A DNA stretch of 64,000 nt from Flavobacteriales bacterium. GTDB lineage: Bacteria > Bacteroidota > Bacteroidia > Flavobacteriales > Schleiferiaceae. Where the stretch lies: the NCBI GenBank assembly GCA_002707525.1, contig PAND01000005.1, forward strand, positions 1 to 64,000. Reading direction: 5' to 3'. Under the pieces are notes generated by a model. The model was not told where the DNA came from. It ran no database searches and worked only from the letters and a program-made list of their open reading frames with translations. A program made the position numbers and the translations under genes. Positions 16,059 to 28,419 of this stretch are shown here, piece by piece. Positions within the stretch are counted from its first letter, which is position 1. Each line of letters opens with the position of its first letter.

Positions 16059-17861
16059 ATGTTATTTTTACGCAACCTAGGCCAATCCATTGGCATGCTG
16101 AGCTTGTTAGTTTTATTCAGCTGTGAAAAAGATTCGCATTTAAGCGAACTTACAATTACTGAATCTTCCAATAGTCAAGTGACCACCAACTTTGATTTCT
16201 CAATGCATCAAAGCGTTGAATTCATTACCCAATCTTGGGAAGACCACTCTGAGCTTGAATTGATTGACATCTTTAACCTAAACGGAATTAAGATTGGTCA
16301 GCTCTCTATGAAAAACACAAATCTTGAGATTAATCTTCCTAAGGCAAAGTCTTCCGTACGAATTGTTTACCGATACAGAGACGGCAGCGACTTTACTGAA
16401 TTACTCCCAATAGAGCATAAAACGGTCTTTATAGCCACAGAGGACATAACGGCACGAGCCACAGCAATTAGCACTTCAACCACACAATCGGCGTTTAAAT
16501 CGTCCTCTTCACCAGTATGCCATACCTGTATTACTATTTTAAACAATGCCAGCGGTGAGACTCCGTTTATCTCCAGCGGCCTCAAAGTACTTTCAGAATC
16601 AGCCGTACCCTATTGGCACCATACTGATGGTGAAGTGGAAATCCATGTCTCAGGAACTCAAGGTGTTCCTTCACATCACGGAAGGCAGTTTATTGAAATA
16701 AATGCAAGTAGTGATGATGGTACTTTATATAGAGAAGCATGTCTGGTTCCAGGATCAACAATTGGGTATTCTATTTGGCACAGAGGCAGAAGAGGAGTTG
16801 ATGCTGCCATTATCAAAATTGGTGGAAGTTTGGCTGCAGCCGCGGCAAAAGACACCATGATAACAGACAATACTAATTGGGTAGAATATACCGGAACCTA
16901 TACTGTTCCTGCTGGAGAGACTACAACCATATTTGCTTTTGAAGCTCTTTTCAGCGCTCAAGGGGTGAATGATTATAGAGAAGGAAACTTTGTTGATCAC
17001 TTTCAACTAACGTGTATTTCAAATGATTCAGACCTTGACGGGATAAGTGATGAAAATGATGAATTCCCTAACGATATTTTGAGAAGCGGTATTGTATTTA
17101 GCGACACTTCAACTTTGGCCGTAGAGGACTTGTGGCCATATAAAGGTGATTACGATTTCAACGATTTAGTGGCTCCATACAGTTATAAAGCAATCACCAA
17201 TGCATCCAATGAGGTTGTTGATCTTGTTATCTATTACGAGATCAAAGCGCGCGGTGGTGCTAGCCAAATTGGTTTGGGCTTCAGCCTCCCAGCAAATCCT
17301 GATAAGGTAGCATCAATCTCCGGCCAATACCTCAATTCTGGATACCTTAATACTGCAATAAACGGAACCGAATCCGGGACCAATTCTTCTGAGCTTCATT
17401 TCTTTGTAGAAGACAACGTAGCCCGTCAAATTGACGGTTGGAATACCTTTGCAAATCATTCCATCTACCCATCCAGTGCAGACAGTATTAATATCCTGTT
17501 CAACGAGCCAAACAATATAAGCATGTTGGCAAATCTGAATCCTTTTGTGGTAATAAATCAAGACAGAGGTAAAGAAATTAGAACTATTGATCAGCTGCCG
17601 TCTTCTTTGGTAAATAGTGAATTATTTGGCACTGGTGACGATGATAGTAATCCTATTTCTAATCAATATTTCAGAACCGTGGATGGACTACCATGGATGC
17701 TTAATATTCCTGGAAACTTTAATTGGACTACAGAAAACACGAACATAGAAGATGGGTACCTCAACTTTAGAAATTGGTATGTATCTAAAGGCGAAGTGCA
17801 CGAATCTTGGCATGACGATTCTAACCCTGAAAATGTAAATCAAGGGAGACTATTCAATTAG
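16059..17861 (+). CDS. LruC-domain lipoprotein
   Basis: A 600-residue lipoprotein: signal MLFLRNLGQSIGMLSLLVLFSC with the lipobox Cys at 22. Residues about 25-130 are a beta-sandwich-like region. Residues about 150-315 contain a domain resembling carbohydrate- or matrix-binding jelly rolls (INASSDDGTLYREACLVPG, TGTYTVPAGETTTIFAFEA). A calcium-binding type repeat (DSDLDGISDENDEFPND, about 323-339) leads into the LruC domain (DUF4842), recognised by EDLWPYKGDYDFNDLV (356-371) and the closing NFNWTTENTNIEDGYLNF. LruC proteins of Bacteroidota are surface lipoproteins of unclear role. It stands alone behind its own promoter region. Confidence 0.82.
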   Translation: MLFLRNLGQSIGMLSLLVLFSCEKDSHLSELTITESSNSQVTTNFDFSMHQSVEFITQSWEDHSELELIDIFNLNGIKIGQLSMKNTNLEINLPKAKSSVRIVYRYRDGSDFTELLPIEHKTVFIATEDITARATAISTSTTQSAFKSSSSPVCHTCITILNNASGETPFISSGLKVLSESAVPYWHHTDGEVEIHVSGTQGVPSHHGRQFIEINASSDDGTLYREACLVPGSTIGYSIWHRGRRGVDAAIIKIGGSLAAAAAKDTMITDNTNWVEYTGTYTVPAGETTTIFAFEALFSAQGVNDYREGNFVDHFQLTCISNDSDLDGISDENDEFPNDILRSGIVFSDTSTLAVEDLWPYKGDYDFNDLVAPYSYKAITNASNEVVDLVIYYEIKARGGASQIGLGFSLPANPDKVASISGQYLNSGYLNTAINGTESGTNSSELHFFVEDNVARQIDGWNTFANHSIYPSSADSINILFNEPNNISMLANLNPFVVINQDRGKEIRTIDQLPSSLVNSELFGTGDDDSNPISNQYFRTVDGLPWMLNIPGNFNWTTENTNIEDGYLNFRNWYVSKGEVHESWHDDSNPENVNQGRLFN

Positions 17862-19120: not shown

Positions 19121-19142
19121 CCACACAATTGGTATTAAAACA

Positions 19143-19173
19143 AAAACCCCGCAAATTGTATTTGCGGGGTTTT
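19143..19173. terminator. Bidirectional intrinsic terminator
   Basis: Arms AAAACCCCGCAAAT and ATTTGCGGGGTTTT enclose a 3-base loop. It can end both the TPR lipoprotein gene on the plus strand and the tRNA-Arg transcript on the minus strand, whose 3' end is 11 bases away. Confidence 0.92.
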
Positions 19174-19183
19174 CTCTTAAAAG

Positions 19184-19364: not shown

Positions 19365-19634
19365 TTACTGAATCTCTACAGTCAATCCTACGTCAAGTAT
19401 TAAATCTGCCTTTTCACGAAGCTGTATATAGGACCCTGACATGATTTGACACTTGCCCTTGTAATGAGTAATCCAAGCACATTGTTCAGCTTGTTCTTCG
19501 TTATGATTACAAACTGCGCAGAGCACATCTATAACAAAATCAAAAGAGTTTTCATGGTCATTAAATAAGACCAATGATTGTTCTTTTAAGACGACAGCGT
19601 CTGAATTGGGCTGTAACTTTTCTTCTGTACTCAT
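19365..19634 (-). CDS. clpS: ATP-dependent Clp protease adaptor ClpS
   Basis: An 89-residue protein. After about 18 variable residues it has the ClpS core: LVLFNDHENSFDFVIDVL (the ND plus D/E N-degron pocket region), then EQAEQCAWITHYKGKCQIMSG (cut here) and a final beta strand ADLILDVGLTVEIQ. ClpS brings N-degron substrates to ClpA/ClpC. The His of the usual Cys/Ala-x-x-x-His segment is present as ITHYKGK. It is downstream of prmA and the 1462-residue gene on the same strand but has its own -7 element (19639), 101 bases after the large gene starts the other side; it is probably a separate unit. Confidence 0.85.
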   Translation of the reverse strand: MSTEEKLQPNSDAVVLKEQSLVLFNDHENSFDFVIDVLCAVCNHNEEQAEQCAWITHYKGKCQIMSGSYIQLREKADLILDVGLTVEIQ

Positions 19635-19735: not shown

Positions 19736-22700
19736 TTATTCTTTTCTGCCAAACCGTCTTTCAAGGAGCAAAATTTTTCCTTTTCCTGCCAGATTGTAGG
19801 TAAACGCGGGCTGGTCTCTCTTGGCAGCAATACTCCTGTCTTTTGGCTTTGCTCCCAAAATACCCGCATTAAATTCTTCATCACTACTTCTTAGACTCAT
19901 TACAGTTCCCTTGAAAGCGATATAAAAGAAATCTGTTCCATTATCCAGGTAAAGTACAATTTCACTGCCTCTTCTTCTCTCCTTAATCTCTACCAAACAA
20001 TCTACCTCTGCAAAGATGGGCATGTTGTAGATATTCTGGATATATGCCTTACCATCTCCTCTAAAACTCTTGTAGCGTCCACTGTACTCCAATTCAATTC
20101 CACTCATTACCAAGCTCTTTCTAAGCTCTTTTGGGAATCTACCTTCGTTTTCAATAGTAGCTAAATTTTCAAGGAATTCACCTCCTGACTTCTGCCCTAA
20201 AAGGCTATACACCCCCTGGACATATGCCTTATCATCACTGCGTTTGGATCCTGAACCATCTGTGAACAGTCCACCTACAAATTCCCAACTGTCCTTGTCT
20301 ACAGGAGCGTCAAGAGTCCATACGCCATCCATGGTGACATCATCCTTATTAAGGTCGTGTCTAACCTCTCCTGCCATCTGCATATCAACTGCTCCTGTGT
20401 TTTGAAACATATTGATAGGGCCGTTTGCGTATAATTCACAGTCGTAATTGTAAAATATGAGGTAGGGGTCTGGAACGGTGTAGTCCTTTAATTTTTCATA
20501 GGTAGTGATTACATAACCCTGCTCCTCATTGTCATAAAACAATACACCTGTGGCAGACAACAACTCAATATCCGCTCTGTCTGCATATTTAGACAAGAAA
20601 TTACTATGACCTCCCAAGCTGTCTTGTGAAATATAGATACCGTTAAACGTATTGTCTCGCAGTTGATCTGGATCGTTTTCTGGTAGTTCTATGACAATGT
20701 CTGAAGGGTCTATATAGCTCGCTATATCAAACCAAGTGGTCTGCAAGTTCTTACAACTGTTTTGAATGAGAATGGATCCCTTAAAAAACATGGGTTCTTG
20801 ATCTGCCTCCAATTGAACATTTCCACGGTAGCCAAAATAGGGGCTTATAGAAAATTCGTCTTTTTCCTCAATTTCCGCTAGACCAATGGTCATACCGCTT
20901 GTATCAGGCTTGATACTCTGGAATGCAATGGGCCAGGTGGATTCTTCCTCATCCAAATAATCGTACATACCATTTGCTGTGTACCGGTATTTACCGCGTA
21001 TCCGAGTAGTTGCATCGTAAAAGGTATGGAGCTTTGAAAACCTATTCGCAATGATTTGTGATTTTTCTAAGGGATCCATGGCGGCGTTCTTTCGGATGAC
21101 CACATAACCGCTATCTGGCAGGATCCGTGAATCTGCAACATCAATTTCCGGGACATCAAAAGCTTCCAAAATACTAGGAGACAGGTCAAACCGTGCAAAT
21201 CCAGCGCTGAAATCAAGGCTGTCTTGCAGCGGATGCGTACTAACTAGATACGCTTCATCATCCAAATTATGCTTGATGTCCACTTTGGATTGGTCAATCT
21301 GCCATTCTGCATGATCCATGTAGGCCATGTATTGATTCGCAGGAAACTCTATAAAACTTGAAGGATCGTTCTTATCAAAAATACCTTCACGTGCATCAAA
21401 ATCTACATTTGCTGAACTATTAAGCATCTGAAACGCCCACTGCTCATCACTCAAGGCCGTTTTGACTCGGAAATCTTGATCTGCACTTTCAAAAGATCGC
21501 CGGTAGAAGGAATAGCCTTCAACTTTACTTTGGTGCTTAGCCGTTAAATAACGAATTTCTCCCGTGCCAAAAAGTCCTTTTGGACCATACGTGAGATCTC
21601 CCTCTGCCAACACATTCTCTGTACCATACATCTCAAAAGAAACGTCCCGTGACCTAGCTTCTAAATAATCATTGTAAGGATACCAATGAAATGGATTATT
21701 ACGTCCAATTGCTTCAGGATAGCCTTTATCCGTAAAGCCCTCCTCTATATTAAAGTTGGTTGCCCTGCCCATTGCATCATCTGGGAACATTAAAATATCC
21801 GGACTCACCGTTATACTCTGCAAGTACTCTATGCGTCCTTCCGCATGAAGTCCTTCATTAGATAATTCTATCTGACCTCCAAACGTTCCTTTGCCCTTGT
21901 AATTGGGAATAGACGGTAAAATGGTGGAGAAACCCAGAGAATAATCAGGCATAACCTTGAGAGGCTGGGGAAATACTGGGAAAATATCTGCACTGTGAAA
22001 GGTGGCGTCAAACAGTAAACCGTCTGTTGTTGTGTTATCCAAACTATCTATTGTGAACGGCTCAACGGCCATGTAGAATCTAGATCTATCGTAAATTCCA
22101 TTATGAATCCTTCTATCATCGTAATACACAAAAGAACTATTCAGTGCCTGGAAAATGGGGTATTCCGGATAAAATTCCCTAGAGCTCTTGTTGTTGGGTT
22201 GGTCTATCAATAGTTGGCCTTGAAGGTCCTGAAGCACTGTTTGCACATCTACAAGTGCCGCTCGTTCTCCAGGTGGAGGATTGAATTCTCTAACTTTAAA
22301 TCGCATTGAATCAATCTGCGGCATATCTATCCTGAACCCTTGATAATCAAAGGTGTAACCTTGACCCCAATAATTGAACAGTCCTGCGTTGATGCGTCCG
22401 TCAAAAATGAAGTCCACATCTTTCTTCATGGTAATTCTTCCACCCCGCGGGTAGAGGTTGACTTGCTGAGAATCACTAACCGCAATCCTTCCTACACCAG
22501 CAATATCCATATCGTAATTGAGCAAGGAAATTTGCGCATTACTGCCTTGACCTATTCTCGAAATAAATTGAATAACATCATAATCGCGCTCTCCTGTCCA
22601 GTTTTGGAGGTACTCAAATAATCGGTCGGAAAGCGATATGGTTTGTTTATCCACATCAAATTCTGCAAAACCTTGAATAGACATTTCAAATAGAAAACGC

Positions 22701-24124
22701 TCGCCTTCCTCTTTAGCCATTCTAAGTGCGTAAATGAGTTCGGATACAGGCATATCGCTGAACCCAAAAGCATAAGATGCATTTTTCAACTCTTCCAGAG
22801 GATGTGTCTGTTGCAATCCCGCAATTTGCTCCATCCGAGAATTTCGAAAGTATTGTTTGCTTTCAAAGACCGCTGCTTGCTGAGAACCTAAATTCAAGTT
22901 GCGAAGATTGATTTTAGCTGTTCCTTGATTCCAAAGTAGTTGATCTACATTAATACTCATATTATGGTAGGAATCTGTCCAAGAACTTAAACCAAGACCC
23001 GTTTTGTAGCGAATGATGCGCACTTGACCCGAGCGCGGATCAAACCGCAATTCGCAATAAGGATGATAAATACTGTCTTCACCTAAATGAGCCGTTACTT
23101 CCACCCTTCCAGAACTTAAGAGGGAGTCGCGAAACAGAAACCTGCCGCTCCTAAGGGTGATAATGGTGTCTTTGTTATAAGTAAATTGAACCTTAGCCAT
23201 TGCACTATCAGGAGACAGACCGTAATAATTGGGGCCTACCACACCCAAACCACCTCTAAAATGTACTTCAGGATATACATTTGGGAGGAGGAAGTCGCTT
23301 TTATAACTCGCAAATTTGGGGTATTGAGAATTTCGCTGGCCCCTAGCACTTAAACGTTCTTCAAATACTCCTTTTAAGGGCTCACTATAGAGTTCTGGAG
23401 AGTATAGTACTGCTGAATCTGCCTTAAAGTATCCTTGGCGGGTATCTAAACTCCATTGGGATAATTCACCGTAAATCTCGTCTTCACTTTTACCCACTCT
23501 GCCCCAAAATACAATACCGCCCTCTGCGGAAAGTAGTCCCTTACGTGGATAGAAAAGAGCCGTGGACCCCATGATGATGGTACTATCTTCACGGAATCGA
23601 CCAATGATGTCTCCTTCTCCAATAACAAAGTAGAGTTCATCCTCATCAAAGCGCATGGTCCACTCACTGAATGGTGCCTTCCAAATTAGCGTATTGTTAT
23701 TGTAAAAGTTTCGCTTGATTATATTTACATAAAGCTGGGAAACATAGTCCTTACTTCGTGCAGAGGGGTTTGATGTAATAAAGGTATTGAGGTGTAAGAG
23801 CACTTTCTCCAATGTACCGTATTCTTCATAGGTGCTCACATGACTCGTTATTCGGAATAGTTCCTCCCAAGGCTTGGATTGCGTAATTCGCTTGCGCAAC
23901 ATCTGGTTGCACAAGGTTATCCATTGCTCCTGCATTTCCTCCTCTATTGCGTATTGAATATTTGGAAGTAAACTGTCTGTAAAAAGAACTCTATCTTCTT
24001 TGGTAAGCGTGATGAGTTCAAGGAATTCCTGAGAAAACACTTCAACGGATGAAAAGCGAACGACCTTCTGCGCGCTCAATTGAAGCGACAGCAAAAATGC
24101 CAAAAGCCATCCGCATCTTCTCAT
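19736..24124 (-). CDS. Giant secreted beta-rich protein, function unknown
   Basis: A 1462-residue protein with signal peptide MRRCGWLLAFLLSLQLSAQ. I recognise no named domain. After a helical segment (about 40-140) the rest is almost entirely short beta strands with alternating polar and hydrophobic residues, many of the form yGxgxIxYLT or FxAxxadIxpxF, which recalls OstA/LptA- or TamB/AsmA-type extended periplasmic beta sheets. Examples are GLLSAEGGIVFWGRVG (near 197), IAVSDSQQVNLYPRGGRITM (near 550) and GLFGTGEIRYLTAKHQSKVE (near 860). It ends in a basic tail (LLLERRFGRKE). Its ATG overlaps the prmA stop by one base (TAATG), so it is translationally coupled to prmA. Export is confident; function is not known. 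Confidence 0.8.
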   Translation of the reverse strand: MRRCGWLLAFLLSLQLSAQKVVRFSSVEVFSQEFLELITLTKEDRVLFTDSLLPNIQYAIEEEMQEQWITLCNQMLRKRITQSKPWEELFRITSHVSTYEEYGTLEKVLLHLNTFITSNPSARSKDYVSQLYVNIIKRNFYNNNTLIWKAPFSEWTMRFDEDELYFVIGEGDIIGRFREDSTIIMGSTALFYPRKGLLSAEGGIVFWGRVGKSEDEIYGELSQWSLDTRQGYFKADSAVLYSPELYSEPLKGVFEERLSARGQRNSQYPKFASYKSDFLLPNVYPEVHFRGGLGVVGPNYYGLSPDSAMAKVQFTYNKDTIITLRSGRFLFRDSLLSSGRVEVTAHLGEDSIYHPYCELRFDPRSGQVRIIRYKTGLGLSSWTDSYHNMSINVDQLLWNQGTAKINLRNLNLGSQQAAVFESKQYFRNSRMEQIAGLQQTHPLEELKNASYAFGFSDMPVSELIYALRMAKEEGERFLFEMSIQGFAEFDVDKQTISLSDRLFEYLQNWTGERDYDVIQFISRIGQGSNAQISLLNYDMDIAGVGRIAVSDSQQVNLYPRGGRITMKKDVDFIFDGRINAGLFNYWGQGYTFDYQGFRIDMPQIDSMRFKVREFNPPPGERAALVDVQTVLQDLQGQLLIDQPNNKSSREFYPEYPIFQALNSSFVYYDDRRIHNGIYDRSRFYMAVEPFTIDSLDNTTTDGLLFDATFHSADIFPVFPQPLKVMPDYSLGFSTILPSIPNYKGKGTFGGQIELSNEGLHAEGRIEYLQSITVSPDILMFPDDAMGRATNFNIEEGFTDKGYPEAIGRNNPFHWYPYNDYLEARSRDVSFEMYGTENVLAEGDLTYGPKGLFGTGEIRYLTAKHQSKVEGYSFYRRSFESADQDFRVKTALSDEQWAFQMLNSSANVDFDAREGIFDKNDPSSFIEFPANQYMAYMDHAEWQIDQSKVDIKHNLDDEAYLVSTHPLQDSLDFSAGFARFDLSPSILEAFDVPEIDVADSRILPDSGYVVIRKNAAMDPLEKSQIIANRFSKLHTFYDATTRIRGKYRYTANGMYDYLDEEESTWPIAFQSIKPDTSGMTIGLAEIEEKDEFSISPYFGYRGNVQLEADQEPMFFKGSILIQNSCKNLQTTWFDIASYIDPSDIVIELPENDPDQLRDNTFNGIYISQDSLGGHSNFLSKYADRADIELLSATGVLFYDNEEQGYVITTYEKLKDYTVPDPYLIFYNYDCELYANGPINMFQNTGAVDMQMAGEVRHDLNKDDVTMDGVWTLDAPVDKDSWEFVGGLFTDGSGSKRSDDKAYVQGVYSLLGQKSGGEFLENLATIENEGRFPKELRKSLVMSGIELEYSGRYKSFRGDGKAYIQNIYNMPIFAEVDCLVEIKERRRGSEIVLYLDNGTDFFYIAFKGTVMSLRSSDEEFNAGILGAKPKDRSIAAKRDQPAFTYNLAGKGKILLLERRFGRKE

Positions 24125-24954
24125 TACTTCTCCATTTTAATGCTTCTCCATTGCCCACGTTCTTTAATTCCCACATAGCTAAGCCCAGCTTCTTCAGCCG
24201 CGCTGCGCAAGGTTGGAATATTCTCTTCATAGAATCCACTAAAGAAAATAGTACCGCCTTTTTTCAAAGATTGAACATATGATTTCATGTCTGCCAACAA
24301 AACGTTAAGGTTGATATTGGCACAAATAGTATCATACAACCCTTCAATTGCTTCTGCCCCACCAATAGTAGCTGTCATCTTTGATTGATTGCGTCTGGCA
24401 TTCTCCAAGGTATTTTCAATGCACCAGGTATCCACATCTATTCCATGCACGTTGGATGCACCGCGCATTTCCGCAAGTATACCAAGAATTCCCGTTCCAC
24501 AACCCATGTCAAGGACCCGCTGCCCATTGGTATCTGTCTCCAAAAGCCATTGAATCATCATGTGAGTAGTTTGGTGGTGTCCGGTTCCAAAAGACATTTT
24601 AGGCTCTATGAGCATGGGGTATTCAAAACCTGTTTGCTCCTGATGAAAAGGAGCACGAATGTATACGCGACCGTCTACCTCAATGGGATCAAAATTATTT
24701 TCCCATTCGGCATTCCAATTAACCTGTTCAATCTCATCTATAGTATAACTTGACGTGACACCCTCCCATTGTAACGCGCCTTGAAGAGAATCTCTTTTAA
24801 AGTCTTCCTTGATGATGTATGCCTCAAAACCATCTTGATTTTCTGAAAAACTCTCAAAACCTAAAGCGCCAAGCTGGGCAATAAAAAGGTCTCTAAAAGG
24901 TTCCAAAGGCTCAACTTTTACGGCTACTTCAATATAAACAGGAGTCTCTGACAT
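24124..24954 (-). CDS. prmA: Ribosomal protein L11 methyltransferase
   Basis: A 276-residue SAM-dependent enzyme that trimethylates ribosomal protein L11. The N-terminal third is the L11-binding ferredoxin-like region (EVAVKVEPLEPFRDLFIAQL). The catalytic part has PKMSFGTGHHQTTHMMIQWL, the SAM motif VLDMGCGTGILGILAEM (about 143-159), GIDVDTWCIENTLENA, and ICANINLNVLLADM, the PrmA form of motif IV (NILAxxL-like). It lies 3 bases after tpiA in the same operon and overlaps the following giant gene by one base. Confidence 0.92.
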   Translation of the reverse strand: MSETPVYIEVAVKVEPLEPFRDLFIAQLGALGFESFSENQDGFEAYIIKEDFKRDSLQGALQWEGVTSSYTIDEIEQVNWNAEWENNFDPIEVDGRVYIRAPFHQEQTGFEYPMLIEPKMSFGTGHHQTTHMMIQWLLETDTNGQRVLDMGCGTGILGILAEMRGASNVHGIDVDTWCIENTLENARRNQSKMTATIGGAEAIEGLYDTICANINLNVLLADMKSYVQSLKKGGTIFFSGFYEENIPTLRSAAEEAGLSYVGIKERGQWRSIKMEK

Positions 24955-24957
24955 ACG

Positions 24958-25728
24958 TTATGCGTTCGTTCTTGCCTTAATGATGCCGGTAAAATCTTCC
25001 GCATTCAAAGAAGCACCGCCTATCAATCCACCGTCAATATCGGCCTGAGCAAATAATTCTGCAGCATTTCCCGGCTTGCAAGACCCACCATATAGTATAG
25101 ATATGTTTTCTGCGGTTTCCGCATCAAAGCGTTCTACCAACCAAGCACGAATTCCTGCATGAACCTCCTGAGCCTGCTCCGGAGTAGCTACTTCTCCAGT
25201 TCCTATGGCCCAAACCGGCTCGTAAGCCAATATAATATTGTCCATGTCATCTGCAATAAAGCCTTCAAGACCTTCCGCACATTGGTGCAGAATCACCGCC
25301 ATGAAGTTTCCCGATTGACGCTCTTCCAAGGTCTCACCAATGCAGTAGATTGCCGCAAGTTCGTTATTCAACGCCTGACTAATCTTAGTTTTACAACTTC
25401 CATTAGATTCACCAAAATACTGACGACGCTCACTATGTCCAATGATGATGGCGTCCACATCTAAACTAGACAGCATAGGAGCGCTAATTTCCCCTGTAAA
25501 GGCACCGTTATCTTCTTCATGAACATTCTGCGCTGCCACAGCGATATACTCATTATCAACCAAGGCACCTACTACGTCACTTAAGTACAAAGAGGGAGGC
25601 GTGATAATTACGCCAGTTTCTCCAACTACCTCTTGATTCAAAGTACTTTTTAGTCCCTCTACTAAGTCCATGGCCTCCGCGTAGGTTGTGTTCATTTTCC
25701 AGTTTCCAGCTACGATTCTACGTCTCAT
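24958..25728 (-). CDS. tpiA: Triosephosphate isomerase
   Basis: A 256-residue TIM barrel that interconverts dihydroxyacetone phosphate and glyceraldehyde 3-phosphate in glycolysis. Visible active-site parts are NWKMN (Asn9-Lys11 region), IIGHSERRQYFGES (electrophilic His), AYEPVWAIGTGEVATPEQ (catalytic Glu and loop 6) and ILYGGSCKPGNA with GGLIGGASL (phosphate site). Length and motifs are complete. It is 24 bases downstream of the permease gene and 3 bases upstream of prmA. Confidence 0.97.
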   Translation of the reverse strand: MRRRIVAGNWKMNTTYAEAMDLVEGLKSTLNQEVVGETGVIITPPSLYLSDVVGALVDNEYIAVAAQNVHEEDNGAFTGEISAPMLSSLDVDAIIIGHSERRQYFGESNGSCKTKISQALNNELAAIYCIGETLEERQSGNFMAVILHQCAEGLEGFIADDMDNIILAYEPVWAIGTGEVATPEQAQEVHAGIRAWLVERFDAETAENISILYGGSCKPGNAAELFAQADIDGGLIGGASLNAEDFTGIIKARTNA

Positions 25729-25752
25729 TATTATTGTTTTTGATGTGTAATT

Positions 25753-26757
25753 TTAAAATAATTCTGCCCTTACCCTTGGATCCAAAATAGCATAGGCAAT
25801 ATCTACTAATGTGGTAATGATTACAAAGACTGTTGCTATGACCAAAACGCACCCCATTGTCACTGGCAAATCTCGCGTATTTAATGCTTCTACCAATAGT
25901 TTTCCCATTCCATTCCATCCAAAAATAATCTCCACGAATACAGCTCCCGCTAATAGAGATGCGAACCATCCGCTGACCGTTGTAATTATTGGATTACTGG
26001 CAACCGGCAAAATGTGACGCAACAGTACCCTTCTCTCCGGAACACCTTTAGCTCGAGCCGTGCGCACAAAGTCCATGGTATTCACCTCCAGAACACTTTT
26101 TCTTGTTAATTGTACTATTACTCCTACAGGACGGATCCCTAAAGTCAAGGCCGGAAGCAATAAATTCTTGAGCTGCAAGTATCGCTCACCGGTATAATCG
26201 TCAACTACATATAAGGAACCCGTCAAATTAAGTCCCGTCCAAGGACCCAATAAAAAGGCAAAAACCCAAGCCATAAGGACCGCTGTAAAAAATGAGGGAA
26301 GACTCATGCCTAATGAACTCAAGGTAGTTAGTGTTCCGTCCAGCCAGTTGCCTTCATTATATGCAGCTATAATTCCAAGAAATACGCCTACGATCACGGC
26401 AACCCCAATTGAAGTAGCCGCCAATAAGGCAGTATTGGGGAAAGTTGATCCTATTAATGCACTAACACTTTGACCTTGGCGCTGAAAACTTTCTCCAAGA
26501 TCTGGCACCGCCATCTTTAACCCGTCCTCCATATCTACTGGAAGAATTCTACCCAAATAATTCACATATTGAACAGCAATTGGTTTATCCAATCCGTATT
26601 TAACTCTAACCGCGGCAAGAGCCTCTGGATCTTCTCTTTTCCCAAGCATCATCTGAGCACTATCACCAGGTATAATGGTGAAAAGAAAGAAAACAAGCGT
26701 AGCTACACCCCATAATGTTAGTAACGCCAGTACTATTTTCCTCCCTGCAAACGCCAT
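25753..26757 (-). CDS. ABC transporter permease, DppB/OppB type
   Basis: A 334-residue inner-membrane protein. I use the ATG at 26757 (MAFAGRKIVLALLTLWGVAT), because it overlaps the preceding stop as TAATG and begins the standard DppB N-terminus; the frame is open to 26820 but that part reads like the tail of the neighbour. Marks are FTIIPGDSAQMMLGKR, the periplasmic loop, six membrane segments, and the coupling motif EVNTMDFVRTARAKGVPERRVLLRHIL (split here: the EAA-like loop, ARAKG). No partner permease, ATPase or binding protein gene is adjacent; in this cluster the permease typically stands alone. Confidence 0.9.
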   Translation of the reverse strand: MAFAGRKIVLALLTLWGVATLVFFLFTIIPGDSAQMMLGKREDPEALAAVRVKYGLDKPIAVQYVNYLGRILPVDMEDGLKMAVPDLGESFQRQGQSVSALIGSTFPNTALLAATSIGVAVIVGVFLGIIAAYNEGNWLDGTLTTLSSLGMSLPSFFTAVLMAWVFAFLLGPWTGLNLTGSLYVVDDYTGERYLQLKNLLLPALTLGIRPVGVIVQLTRKSVLEVNTMDFVRTARAKGVPERRVLLRHILPVASNPIITTVSGWFASLLAGAVFVEIIFGWNGMGKLLVEALNTRDLPVTMGCVLVIATVFVIITTLVDIAYAILDPRVRAELF

Positions 26758-27875
26758 TACTTTGGACTGTCGTTGTGATGGTGTTTTTTGATTACTGTTC
26801 CTTCTTTGAGGATAACCCAACCGGGATTAGAACGAACCATGGTCTTGAGCGTTGTTTCATCAGTAAATCCAAACGGCGTTTGCTCAGTAACACCATATGC
26901 TGCAAAGTCTGAAATATTAGAGGCAGTCAATACAATGTATGGTATCCCCTGAGTGGCAAGGTTTTCCATGGTAGGCATAACATGAGCCCAACCCTTCTCT
27001 GATGTTTTTGAATGGTTATAAGCCACTAAAAGCCAAACCTCATCTAGCGCTAATATGCTATCCGTAATATCATTGTTGCGCTCAGTCATTATACCAAAGT
27101 CATGGACAGGCGGCTCATAGCCCTCTGCAACTTTAATGGTCTTACTCAATTCTGAAACTATGGTCCATTCCTTCTTCTCCCACCATTTTTCGCTTATGTA
27201 GACAGTAGACTTGATTTCTTTGCGCGATCCAGTTTCATTTTGCATGGTGTAAATGACCTCATATCTGGGAGGTTCCAATCCTAATTCTTCTGCCGACTTC
27301 ATTCCTTCAATGATACTTAATCCCTCAGCATAAGGTCTAAAGTCTTTTGCAGGTAAATGATTCATCACTTGGTAGGTGAAAAGGATACTAAAACCTAATC
27401 CAATGACCATCACTAAAATAGACGCAAACTTTGGAACCTTATCAAAAATTTGTTTTTCACCCCACCATAGGATTAGAATTAGTATGGATAGTACTACATC
27501 TTTAGAAAAACTCTCCCAAGGCGTAAGCGGTATGGCATCACCAAAACAACCACAGTCTGTTACTTGATTGTAGTAGGCACTCCAGAAGGTAAGAAAGGTA
27601 AAAAATCCAATCATAGCGCTTAATAGAATAAGTACCATTCTTTTCCACAAACCCAACAGCAAAGCCAAACCTAGCAATACCTCTACTGCAACTAACAATA
27701 TAGATATGGGCAAAGCAAAAGGCTCAAATATGGGCATATTGAGTACTTCTTCACTAAAATATTCTTCCAATTTGAAGCTAAAACCCACTGGGTCGTTCAT
27801 CTTGACCAAACCAGAAAAAATAAAGAGCCCCCCAACAAACAGTTGGGAAATTCTAACGATTGCAGTCTTTAACAT
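26757..27875 (-). CDS. BT_3928-family protein: DoxX-like membrane domain plus thioredoxin-like tail
   Basis: A 372-residue protein. Residues about 1-150 are four membrane helices of the DoxX/MauE type (RISQLFVGGLFIFSGLVKMN, ALPISILLVAVEVLLGLALL), with the conserved DCGCFGD motif near residue 107. The rest (about 230-370) resembles a thioredoxin fold without a CxxC (EVWLLVAYNHSKTSEKGWAH, then GIPYIVLTAS and NPGWVILKEGTV). I prefer the ATG at 27875, one base after the DUF1599 stop; ATG 27893 is possible. A role in envelope redox or respiration is suggested by DoxX/MauE relatives but unproven. It is the second gene of the minus-strand cluster. Confidence 0.85.
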   Translation of the reverse strand: MLKTAIVRISQLFVGGLFIFSGLVKMNDPVGFSFKLEEYFSEEVLNMPIFEPFALPISILLVAVEVLLGLALLLGLWKRMVLILLSAMIGFFTFLTFWSAYYNQVTDCGCFGDAIPLTPWESFSKDVVLSILILILWWGEKQIFDKVPKFASILVMVIGLGFSILFTYQVMNHLPAKDFRPYAEGLSIIEGMKSAEELGLEPPRYEVIYTMQNETGSRKEIKSTVYISEKWWEKKEWTIVSELSKTIKVAEGYEPPVHDFGIMTERNNDITDSILALDEVWLLVAYNHSKTSEKGWAHVMPTMENLATQGIPYIVLTASNISDFAAYGVTEQTPFGFTDETTLKTMVRSNPGWVILKEGTVIKKHHHNDSPK

Positions 27876-27876
27876 G

Positions 27877-28419
27877 CTATGCTGATTTTTCAATAAACTT
27901 AATTAATGCGAAAACACTGTAATTGATCATATCTAGGTAGTTTGCATCTAGACCTTCACTTACCAATGTTTTTCCTTGATTATCTTCTATCTGCTTGACG
28001 CGCAGAAGCTTTTGTATGATCAAATCTGTAAAGCTCGAAACCCGCATATCACGCCAAGCTTCGCCATAGTCGTGATTCTTCTTCAACATAAGTTCTTTGG
28101 CTTCGTTGGCTTTTTCCAAATATGCAGAGGAAGCTTCTTCCCAATTCATATCAGGCTGTTCTGCAATGCCTTTTTCCATTTGAATAAGCGCCATGATACT
28201 GTAGTTCAAAATACCAATGAACTCGCCTTCAAGGGGATCATTAACCAACTGTTCACCTTTCTGCTCAATACTTCTTAGCCGTTGCGCCTTAATAAATATT
28301 TGATCGGTCAAAGACGGCAGGCGCAAAATTCGCCAAGCAGTCCCATAATCTTTACCCTTCTTTTCAAAAAGTCCGTGACATTTAGAAAGCACGGTATCGA
28401 ATTGTTCAGCTGTATTCAT
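27877..28419 (-). CDS. DUF1599 protein with internal duplication
   Basis: A 180-residue protein made of two similar halves: KGKDYGTAWRILRLPSLTDQ (about 21-40) and KNHDYGEAWRDMRVSSFTDL (about 115-134), each followed by a KxxRxxxIE helix (QRLRSIEQ, LRVKQIED) and a YSIMALIQM / YSVFALIKF helix. This matches the DUF1599 family common in Bacteroidota; the function is unknown. It is the first gene of the cluster running to tpiA and prmA and is divergent from folP across 38 bases. Confidence 0.88.
   Translation of the reverse strand: MNTAEQFDTVLSKCHGLFEKKGKDYGTAWRILRLPSLTDQIFIKAQRLRSIEQKGEQLVNDPLEGEFIGILNYSIMALIQMEKGIAEQPDMNWEEASSAYLEKANEAKELMLKKNHDYGEAWRDMRVSSFTDLIIQKLLRVKQIEDNQGKTLVSEGLDANYLDMINYSVFALIKFIEKSA

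Follow-up and report, generated by a model that had tools for sequence, protein, structure and literature searches.

A giant, probably secreted protein of Bacteroidia, encoded beside prmA, with a predicted and internally duplicated Lpt-type jellyroll

Introduction

Two groups of envelope proteins are the closest described counterparts of the giant protein considered here: the lipid-carrying jellyroll proteins of lipopolysaccharide (LPS) transport, namely LptA, LptH, LptC and the N-terminal domain of LptD (LptD-N), and the TamB/AsmA proteins, which are presumed to span the periplasm as an extended sheet. Delivery to the outer membrane of lipids other than LPS is an open question and has been little studied in Bacteroidota. 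The giant protein, a single chain of 1462 residues, is encoded between prmA and clpS in a 64,000-nucleotide stretch (the window; contig PAND01000005.1, positions 1 to 64,000) of a Flavobacteriales bacterium of the Schleiferiaceae (assembly GCA_002707525.1). We find that it occurs class-wide in Bacteroidia, at a conserved locus, and that it contains an internal duplication and confidently predicted Lpt-type jellyroll units.

With the Lpt proteins the giant protein shares the jellyroll in at least three stretches of its predicted models (Z 9.7-11.1) and amphipathic strands, and a periplasmic location with a cleaved signal is probably common to both. E. coli LptA, however, has only 185 aa, and the giant protein further differs from the Lpt jellyrolls by its duplicated unit, a winged-helix-like insert, helical ends, the lack of a sequence match and a gene that has not been observed beside lpt genes. 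OstA_2, the LptA-like protein of the phylum itself, is mostly 500-700 aa long, with N-termini that resemble signal peptides; it is present in the source genome (G000:C17:89173) and has no profile similarity to the giant protein. TamB proteins are of like size (open frames mostly of 1300-1800 aa), yet they carry a membrane anchor where the giant protein probably has a cleaved-type signal, and the listed fold matches go to Lpt proteins.

In Flavobacterium johnsoniae and Capnocytophaga canimorsus, TamL and TamB are essential, whereas F. johnsoniae TamB2 is not, and TamB2/TamL2 are found in 20 of 30 species (PMC12045153).

Results

To model the giant protein, we ran AlphaFold on two overlapping fragments, residues 19-960 and 480-1462, with 68-row alignments. 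The first model reached a mean predicted local distance difference test score (pLDDT) of 91.2 and a predicted template modelling score (pTM) of 0.70, the second 89.7 and 0.60, and their secondary structure was the same at 468 of the 481 shared positions. The models contain 93 strands of at least three residues, with 683 of the 1462 residues in strands and 240 in helices. An earlier note on this DNA had described almost continuous short strands, which is mostly right, except that the helical residues are concentrated in three regions. Hydrophobic and polar residues alternate along the strands more than in within-strand shuffles (z 6.8; 0 of 2000 shuffles reach it).

The fold was assigned mainly from Z-scores given by VIA, a second-look alignment that ranks by Z. 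Lpt proteins made up all 15 best rows for the first model and all 11 best rows for the second. In the first model, LptA (2r1a_G) matched residues 835-960 with Z 11.1, a root-mean-square deviation (rmsd) of 2.8 and 116 of 135 positions aligned; LptH (4uu4) followed with Z 10.3, LptC (6mit_C) matched residues 271-423 with Z 10.0 (rmsd 3.0, 130 aligned), and LptD was also among the best rows. In the second model, LptD came first with Z 10.3, yet with rmsd 57, while LptA, next in rank, matched residues 835-967 (Z 10.2, rmsd 3.3) and LptC (3my2), lower in the ranking, residues 517-670 (Z 9.7, rmsd 3.2, 116 aligned). The long LptD alignments, with rmsd values of 14-57, are meaningless beyond a domain, and the C-terminus is helical where a barrel strand would be expected of LptD. 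For the first model, LptD chains occupied all nine leading rows of Foldseek; LptC 6mit_C scored probability 0.99 (E 0.021), and LptA 2r19 probability 0.99 (E 0.26) for the second model. From these matches, an Lpt-type jellyroll (beta-taco) is confidently predicted in at least three stretches of the chain.

Regions ~19-250 and 1232-1462 were barely covered by the fold searches. None of the listed PDB rows was an AsmA/TamB, VPS13 or other repeating-groove structure, which does not exclude such folds, and a shared fold by itself shows no function, as the tool itself cautions. The earlier note had compared the strand pattern with both OstA/LptA and TamB/AsmA. At the level of fold the OstA/LptA half of this analogy holds, with LptA, LptH, LptC and LptD at the top by Z; for the TamB/AsmA half no family match was found, the TamB family model (PF04357) hitting 0 of 33 members, and the one PF04357 match of the source genome lies elsewhere (C17:72605). 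An extended sheet, as the note proposed, would be compatible with the jellyroll stretches and with strands through most of the chain, which may join into one groove.

Comparison of the family profile with itself revealed an internal duplication. At E <1e-3, 41 of 496 non-self-overlapping pairs of profile windows matched, against 0 of 496 when one side was reversed; neighbouring profile windows overlap, so the 41 pairs are not independent. Region 265-604 is repeated at 808-1071 with E near 1e-8, and repeat offsets lie at ~447-458 (E down to 2.8e-8), 540-551 (7.6e-8) and 91 (2.8e-9). Further repeats pair residues 740-796 with 831-890 (E 2.8e-9) and 169-279 with 542-666 (E 1.4e-4); another match, between 479-501 and 1187-1209, is short (E 9e-4). 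Both copies separately match Lpt structures, which supports the fold assignment. The duplication is visible at the profile level only, and a DNA repeat search gave just short two- and three-copy families among those shown.

Across the winged-helix-like region the repeat offset falls from ~543 to ~447, which fits an insert of ~96 residues, but a few of the repeats align as far back as 455-515. With Z 8.9, the best winged-helix-like match lies close to what common arrangements reach. This fold sits in one copy of the duplicated jellyroll, inside a probably secreted protein.

The chain begins with a hydrophobic segment followed by Q19, which is present in 58/58 rows of alignment A2 and in 84/88 rows of a wider alignment, with gaps in the remaining four. 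The Bacteroidetes Q-rule predicts a glutamine after the cleavage site in signal peptidase I substrates (PMC5837995). Q19 fits this rule, and the giant protein is probably secreted and cleaved by signal peptidase I. The signal peptide described earlier is probable from the hydrophobic N-terminus and the conserved Q19. Positions 1124 and 1229 are cysteine in 56/58 rows of A2 and in 75/88 rows of the wider alignment, so not universally, and C1124 and C1229 perhaps form a disulfide.

Searches of Pfam and NCBIfam gave no credible family for any of 33 diverse members, in agreement with the earlier statement that no known domain is present, and a PDB sequence search with a 58-row profile found nothing credible (best E 0.38). 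The sequence matches obtained were weak, under the cut-off or inconsistent in kind, and were rejected, among them Cupin_3 at residues 144-197, seen in 1/33 members (E 0.0023; bit score 18, cut-off 23.5), and CsgE, seen in 2/33 (best E 0.02). No C-terminal tail model of the type IX secretion system (T9SS) was among the NCBIfam matches of the 33 members at E 0.1. Literature searches on prmA/clpS, LptA/OstA-like proteins and TamB in Bacteroidetes/Bacteroidota brought up no description of such a protein, judged by titles and abstract openings. The giant protein is without a family name and is a candidate unnamed secreted protein of Bacteroidia.

An 11-row profile search found a match in 211/247 genomes and 115/136 genera of the class, where the relatives are long open frames, and in 117/296 genomes of the order. 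A phylum-wide search matched 11/296 genomes; the genomes sampled seem to be very complete ones, with a large share from f3, a family lacking the gene, and the figure therefore says nothing about occurrence beyond the class. The source genome has a single match. The 18 named close relatives are metagenome-assembled genomes labelled Flavobacteriales, Cryomorphaceae, Schleiferiaceae, Crocinitomicaceae or Bacteroidetes, and a plasmid search with the window protein as query gave no match.

The gene was scored as absent where neither profile A1 nor profile A3 gave a match at E 0.001, a criterion that a very divergent copy could escape. Families f3, f6 and f16 hold 12 of the 20 listed match-less genomes of the order, 159 others being outside the list, and one match-less genome, G278 (94% complete), is of the window's own family. 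Four match-less genomes (G002, G030 and G039 of f3, and G003 of f4) have clpS immediately after prmA, the arrangement expected from a clean loss; in other match-less genomes, different genes come after prmA.

The length of the protein is mostly constant, with a median of 1476 in 88 aligned sequences and a 5th-95th percentile range of 1293-1598, some sequences being cut by contig or locus ends; in a few families it is 1700-1850. Against L028, nonsynonymous divergence (dN) is 0.115 and synonymous divergence (dS) 2.44, which in this one close pair points to strong constraint; dS against L001, L003 and L005 is saturated and gives no estimate. One relative (G490:C274:23394-26939) has a TGA inside the open frame and may be a broken copy, an assembly error or a sign of another code.

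The features of the locus and of the protein are collected in Table 1. Since prmA ends at 24124, the final A of its TAA is also the first base of the giant gene's ATG (TAATG), so that both the placement of the gene between prmA and clpS and the overlap described earlier are confirmed by open reading frame (ORF) coordinates and by Pfam. Directly upstream and on the same strand, prmA was found in 54 of 62 testable loci (63 examined, one cut at a contig edge), and tpiA lies at position -1 or -2 in 46/63. At the 54 junctions of prmA and the giant gene, with gene starts picked by a hydrophobicity heuristic, 18 overlap, in three cases by a single base; the genes are 0-30 nt apart in 29 and further apart in seven. 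The TAATG overlap is not a conserved device, whereas the neighbourhood is conserved, which leaves the earlier note's emphasis on a translational tie to PrmA weak.

Among the 59 loci that extend 1.4 kb or more downstream, plsY lies within three genes in 19 and clpS in 17. Pfam checks of downstream genes gave the plsY family in 2/2 examples tested and ClpS in one. The product of plsY makes a lipid precursor. In a genome without the giant gene (L128) prmA adjoins plsY too, so this adjacency is weak functional evidence. No terminator-like stem was among those listed on the minus strand from the giant gene to clpS.

Several loci and neighbours stand apart. The prmA match is absent or short (E 3e-5 to 4e-5) in G010, G020, G028, G314, G319, G329 and G375, and G375 has the giant gene without a convincing prmA match. 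In the window, positions 24958-28419 hold tpiA, an ABC permease gene (BPD_transp_1), a MauE/DoxX-like gene and a DUF1599 gene, which are retained with prmA in many loci. Past clpS, on the opposite strand, positions 16059-17861 encode a 600-aa DUF4842-domain protein.

Table 1. Features of the giant-protein locus in the window
Feature	Coordinates	Strand	Basis
Terminator-like stem, 15 pairs	19142..19174	-	strong; 3' of clpS
clpS	19365..19634	-	Pfam ClpS 3.3e-15; downstream of giant gene
Giant-protein coding sequence	19736..24124	-	ORF call, ATG start, 1462 aa, stop codon counted in
C-terminal helical stretch, residues ~1277-1327	20144..20296	-	AlphaFold secondary structure
Predicted jellyroll, second copy, part 2 (968-1071)	20912..21223	-	profile repeat of 516-604
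Predicted jellyroll, second copy, part 1 (808-954)	21263..21703	-	LptA 2r1a_G fold match; repeats 265-411
Predicted jellyroll, first copy, part 2 (516-604)	22313..22579	-	LptC 3my2 fold match; repeats 968-1071
Winged-helix-like insert, residues ~425-514	22583..22852	-	Rio2/MarR matches, Z 8.9 and below; repeat-offset shift
Predicted jellyroll, first copy, part 1 (265-411)	22892..23332	-	LptC 6mit_C fold match; repeats 808-954
N-terminal all-helical domain, residues ~30-135	23720..24037	-	AlphaFold secondary structure
Putative signal peptide, residues 1-18	24071..24124	-	hydrophobic N-terminus, conserved Q19 next, Q-rule
prmA	24124..24954	-	Pfam PrmA 1.7e-44; conserved upstream neighbour; stop overlaps giant-gene ATG
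tpiA	24958..25728	-	Pfam TIM; second conserved neighbour upstream

Discussion

With somewhat more conviction than doubt, we read the giant protein, from its predicted structure, as a soluble periplasmic protein whose long Lpt-like jellyroll makes a lipid bridge between the inner and the outer membrane. The chain, soluble in the periplasm, would fold into a jellyroll (beta-taco) of great length and of the type seen in LptA, LptC and LptD-N, which would have arisen by internal duplication of a unit of ~250-340 residues. Its units may stack into one trough of ~22 nm, from 93 strands at two per layer and 0.48 nm per layer, a layer geometry that we take to apply here. Like an LptA oligomer made in one piece, it would most likely bridge both membranes and pass lipid, the kind of which is likewise conjectural, along a hydrophobic trough. 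The helical ends, the N-terminal helical domain included, and the winged-helix-like insert would be likely docking modules to partners. The source genome has LptF/G, LptC, OstA_2 and TamB matches elsewhere, and the giant protein would act beside, not instead of, its canonical Lpt set.

Several observations weigh against this reading. Within the structural data, the pTM values of 0.6-0.7 leave the relative placement of the units uncertain, and amphipathic strands are found in any beta protein. Foldseek on the second model was led by teneurin-2 (E 2.2e-6, probability 0.44, TM-score 0.07), ahead of LptD, and the Foldseek TM-scores of LptD were 0.06-0.18; in VIA, the unrelated TCP10 domain of CPAP reached Z 9.1 on the second model, at rmsd 9.1. 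At the level of sequence, Pfam OstA, OstA_2, LptC and LptD matched 0/33 members, and in a profile comparison with the Bacteroidota OstA_2 family 0/315 window pairs reached E 1e-3. Comparison with E. coli LptA, LptC and LptD-N likewise found nothing, a weak test because the accepted pair of OstA_2 and LptA reaches only E 1.3e-3. The giant protein looks like an Lpt jellyroll in its predicted fold, and may or may not share descent with the Lpt proteins. Finally, in 69 chosen genomes, 40 with and 29 without the giant gene, those without it keep LptF/G in 28/29 and OstA_2 in 28/29 (68/69 and 66/69 overall), and LptC counts, given below, differ between the two groups, perhaps a sign of some tie with the Lpt machine.

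A more specific proposal is tentative: the giant protein would be a further inter-membrane lipid conduit, independent of both the LPS machine and TamB, and a second TamB would have made up for its loss in several lineages. Two TamB proteins (distinct ORFs, counted by hand) occur in 17/29 genomes without the giant gene and in 5/40 with it, and among genomes of 3.0-5.5 Mb in 17/22 and 4/21, respectively. This association may be phylogenetic, as related genomes are not independent, and no TamB gain is seen within family f30, where G309 has the giant gene and G388 lacks it, or within f35, where G423 has it and G314 lacks it. The counts are a hint at compensation that is confounded but testable. 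The second TamB is often ~1700 aa long.

It is unlikely that the giant protein is instead an extra part of the LptB2FG-LptC-OstA_2-LptD machine, serving LPS transport as an extended bridge or an aligning scaffold. The fold matches are specifically to Lpt parts, and no extra LptFG pair accompanies the giant gene, since genomes of either group mostly have two or three LptF/LptG matches. An LptC match, found in 60/69 genomes, is missing in 7/29 without the giant gene but in only 2/40 with it, which could also hint at an Lpt link. Yet, as the genomes without the giant gene keep LptF/G, OstA_2 and, in 22/29, LptC, LPS export does not need the giant protein; its neighbours, moreover, are tpiA, prmA, plsY and clpS, with no lpt gene among the recognised recurrent neighbour clusters. 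The genomes without an LptC match are G003, G019, G028, G031, G039, G040 and G319 (without the giant gene) and G009 and G375 (with it). Two genomes with the giant gene, G022 and G323, have no OstA_2 match, from a divergent OstA or a real absence.

Somewhat more improbable is a periplasmic scaffold or chaperone for the assembly of outer-membrane proteins or lipoproteins, in which the jellyroll stack would be a long platform of edge strands and not a lipid trough. Such a role would suit a large, repetitive protein with helical and winged-helix-like docking modules. In F. johnsoniae, outer-membrane lipoproteins rose when TamL was depleted, and the authors present arguments against a role of TamL in lipid handling (PMC12045153), so envelope bridges of this phylum need not carry lipid. 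By Z, on the other hand, the giant protein matches the lipid-carrying Lpt jellyrolls. Least probable is a protein of the cell surface or of structural function that transports nothing and whose likeness to Lpt would reflect a common beta-meander arrangement: no sequence homology to Lpt proteins was found and other beta proteins match (teneurin in Foldseek, CPAP TCP10 in VIA, and OspA in VIA with Z up to 5.9, on the second model), but the best Lpt rows span nearly the whole LptA/LptC domain at rmsd near 3, unlike CPAP, and the mostly constant length, the constraint and the lack of a T9SS tail match also speak against it.

Under the reading that we favour, a lipid bridge between the two membranes, the giant protein gains its interest from being large, class-wide and without a family name while having a predicted Lpt-type fold, which makes it a concrete candidate for the delivery of lipids other than LPS. 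The giant gene offers a fixed genomic address and natural absences for comparison.

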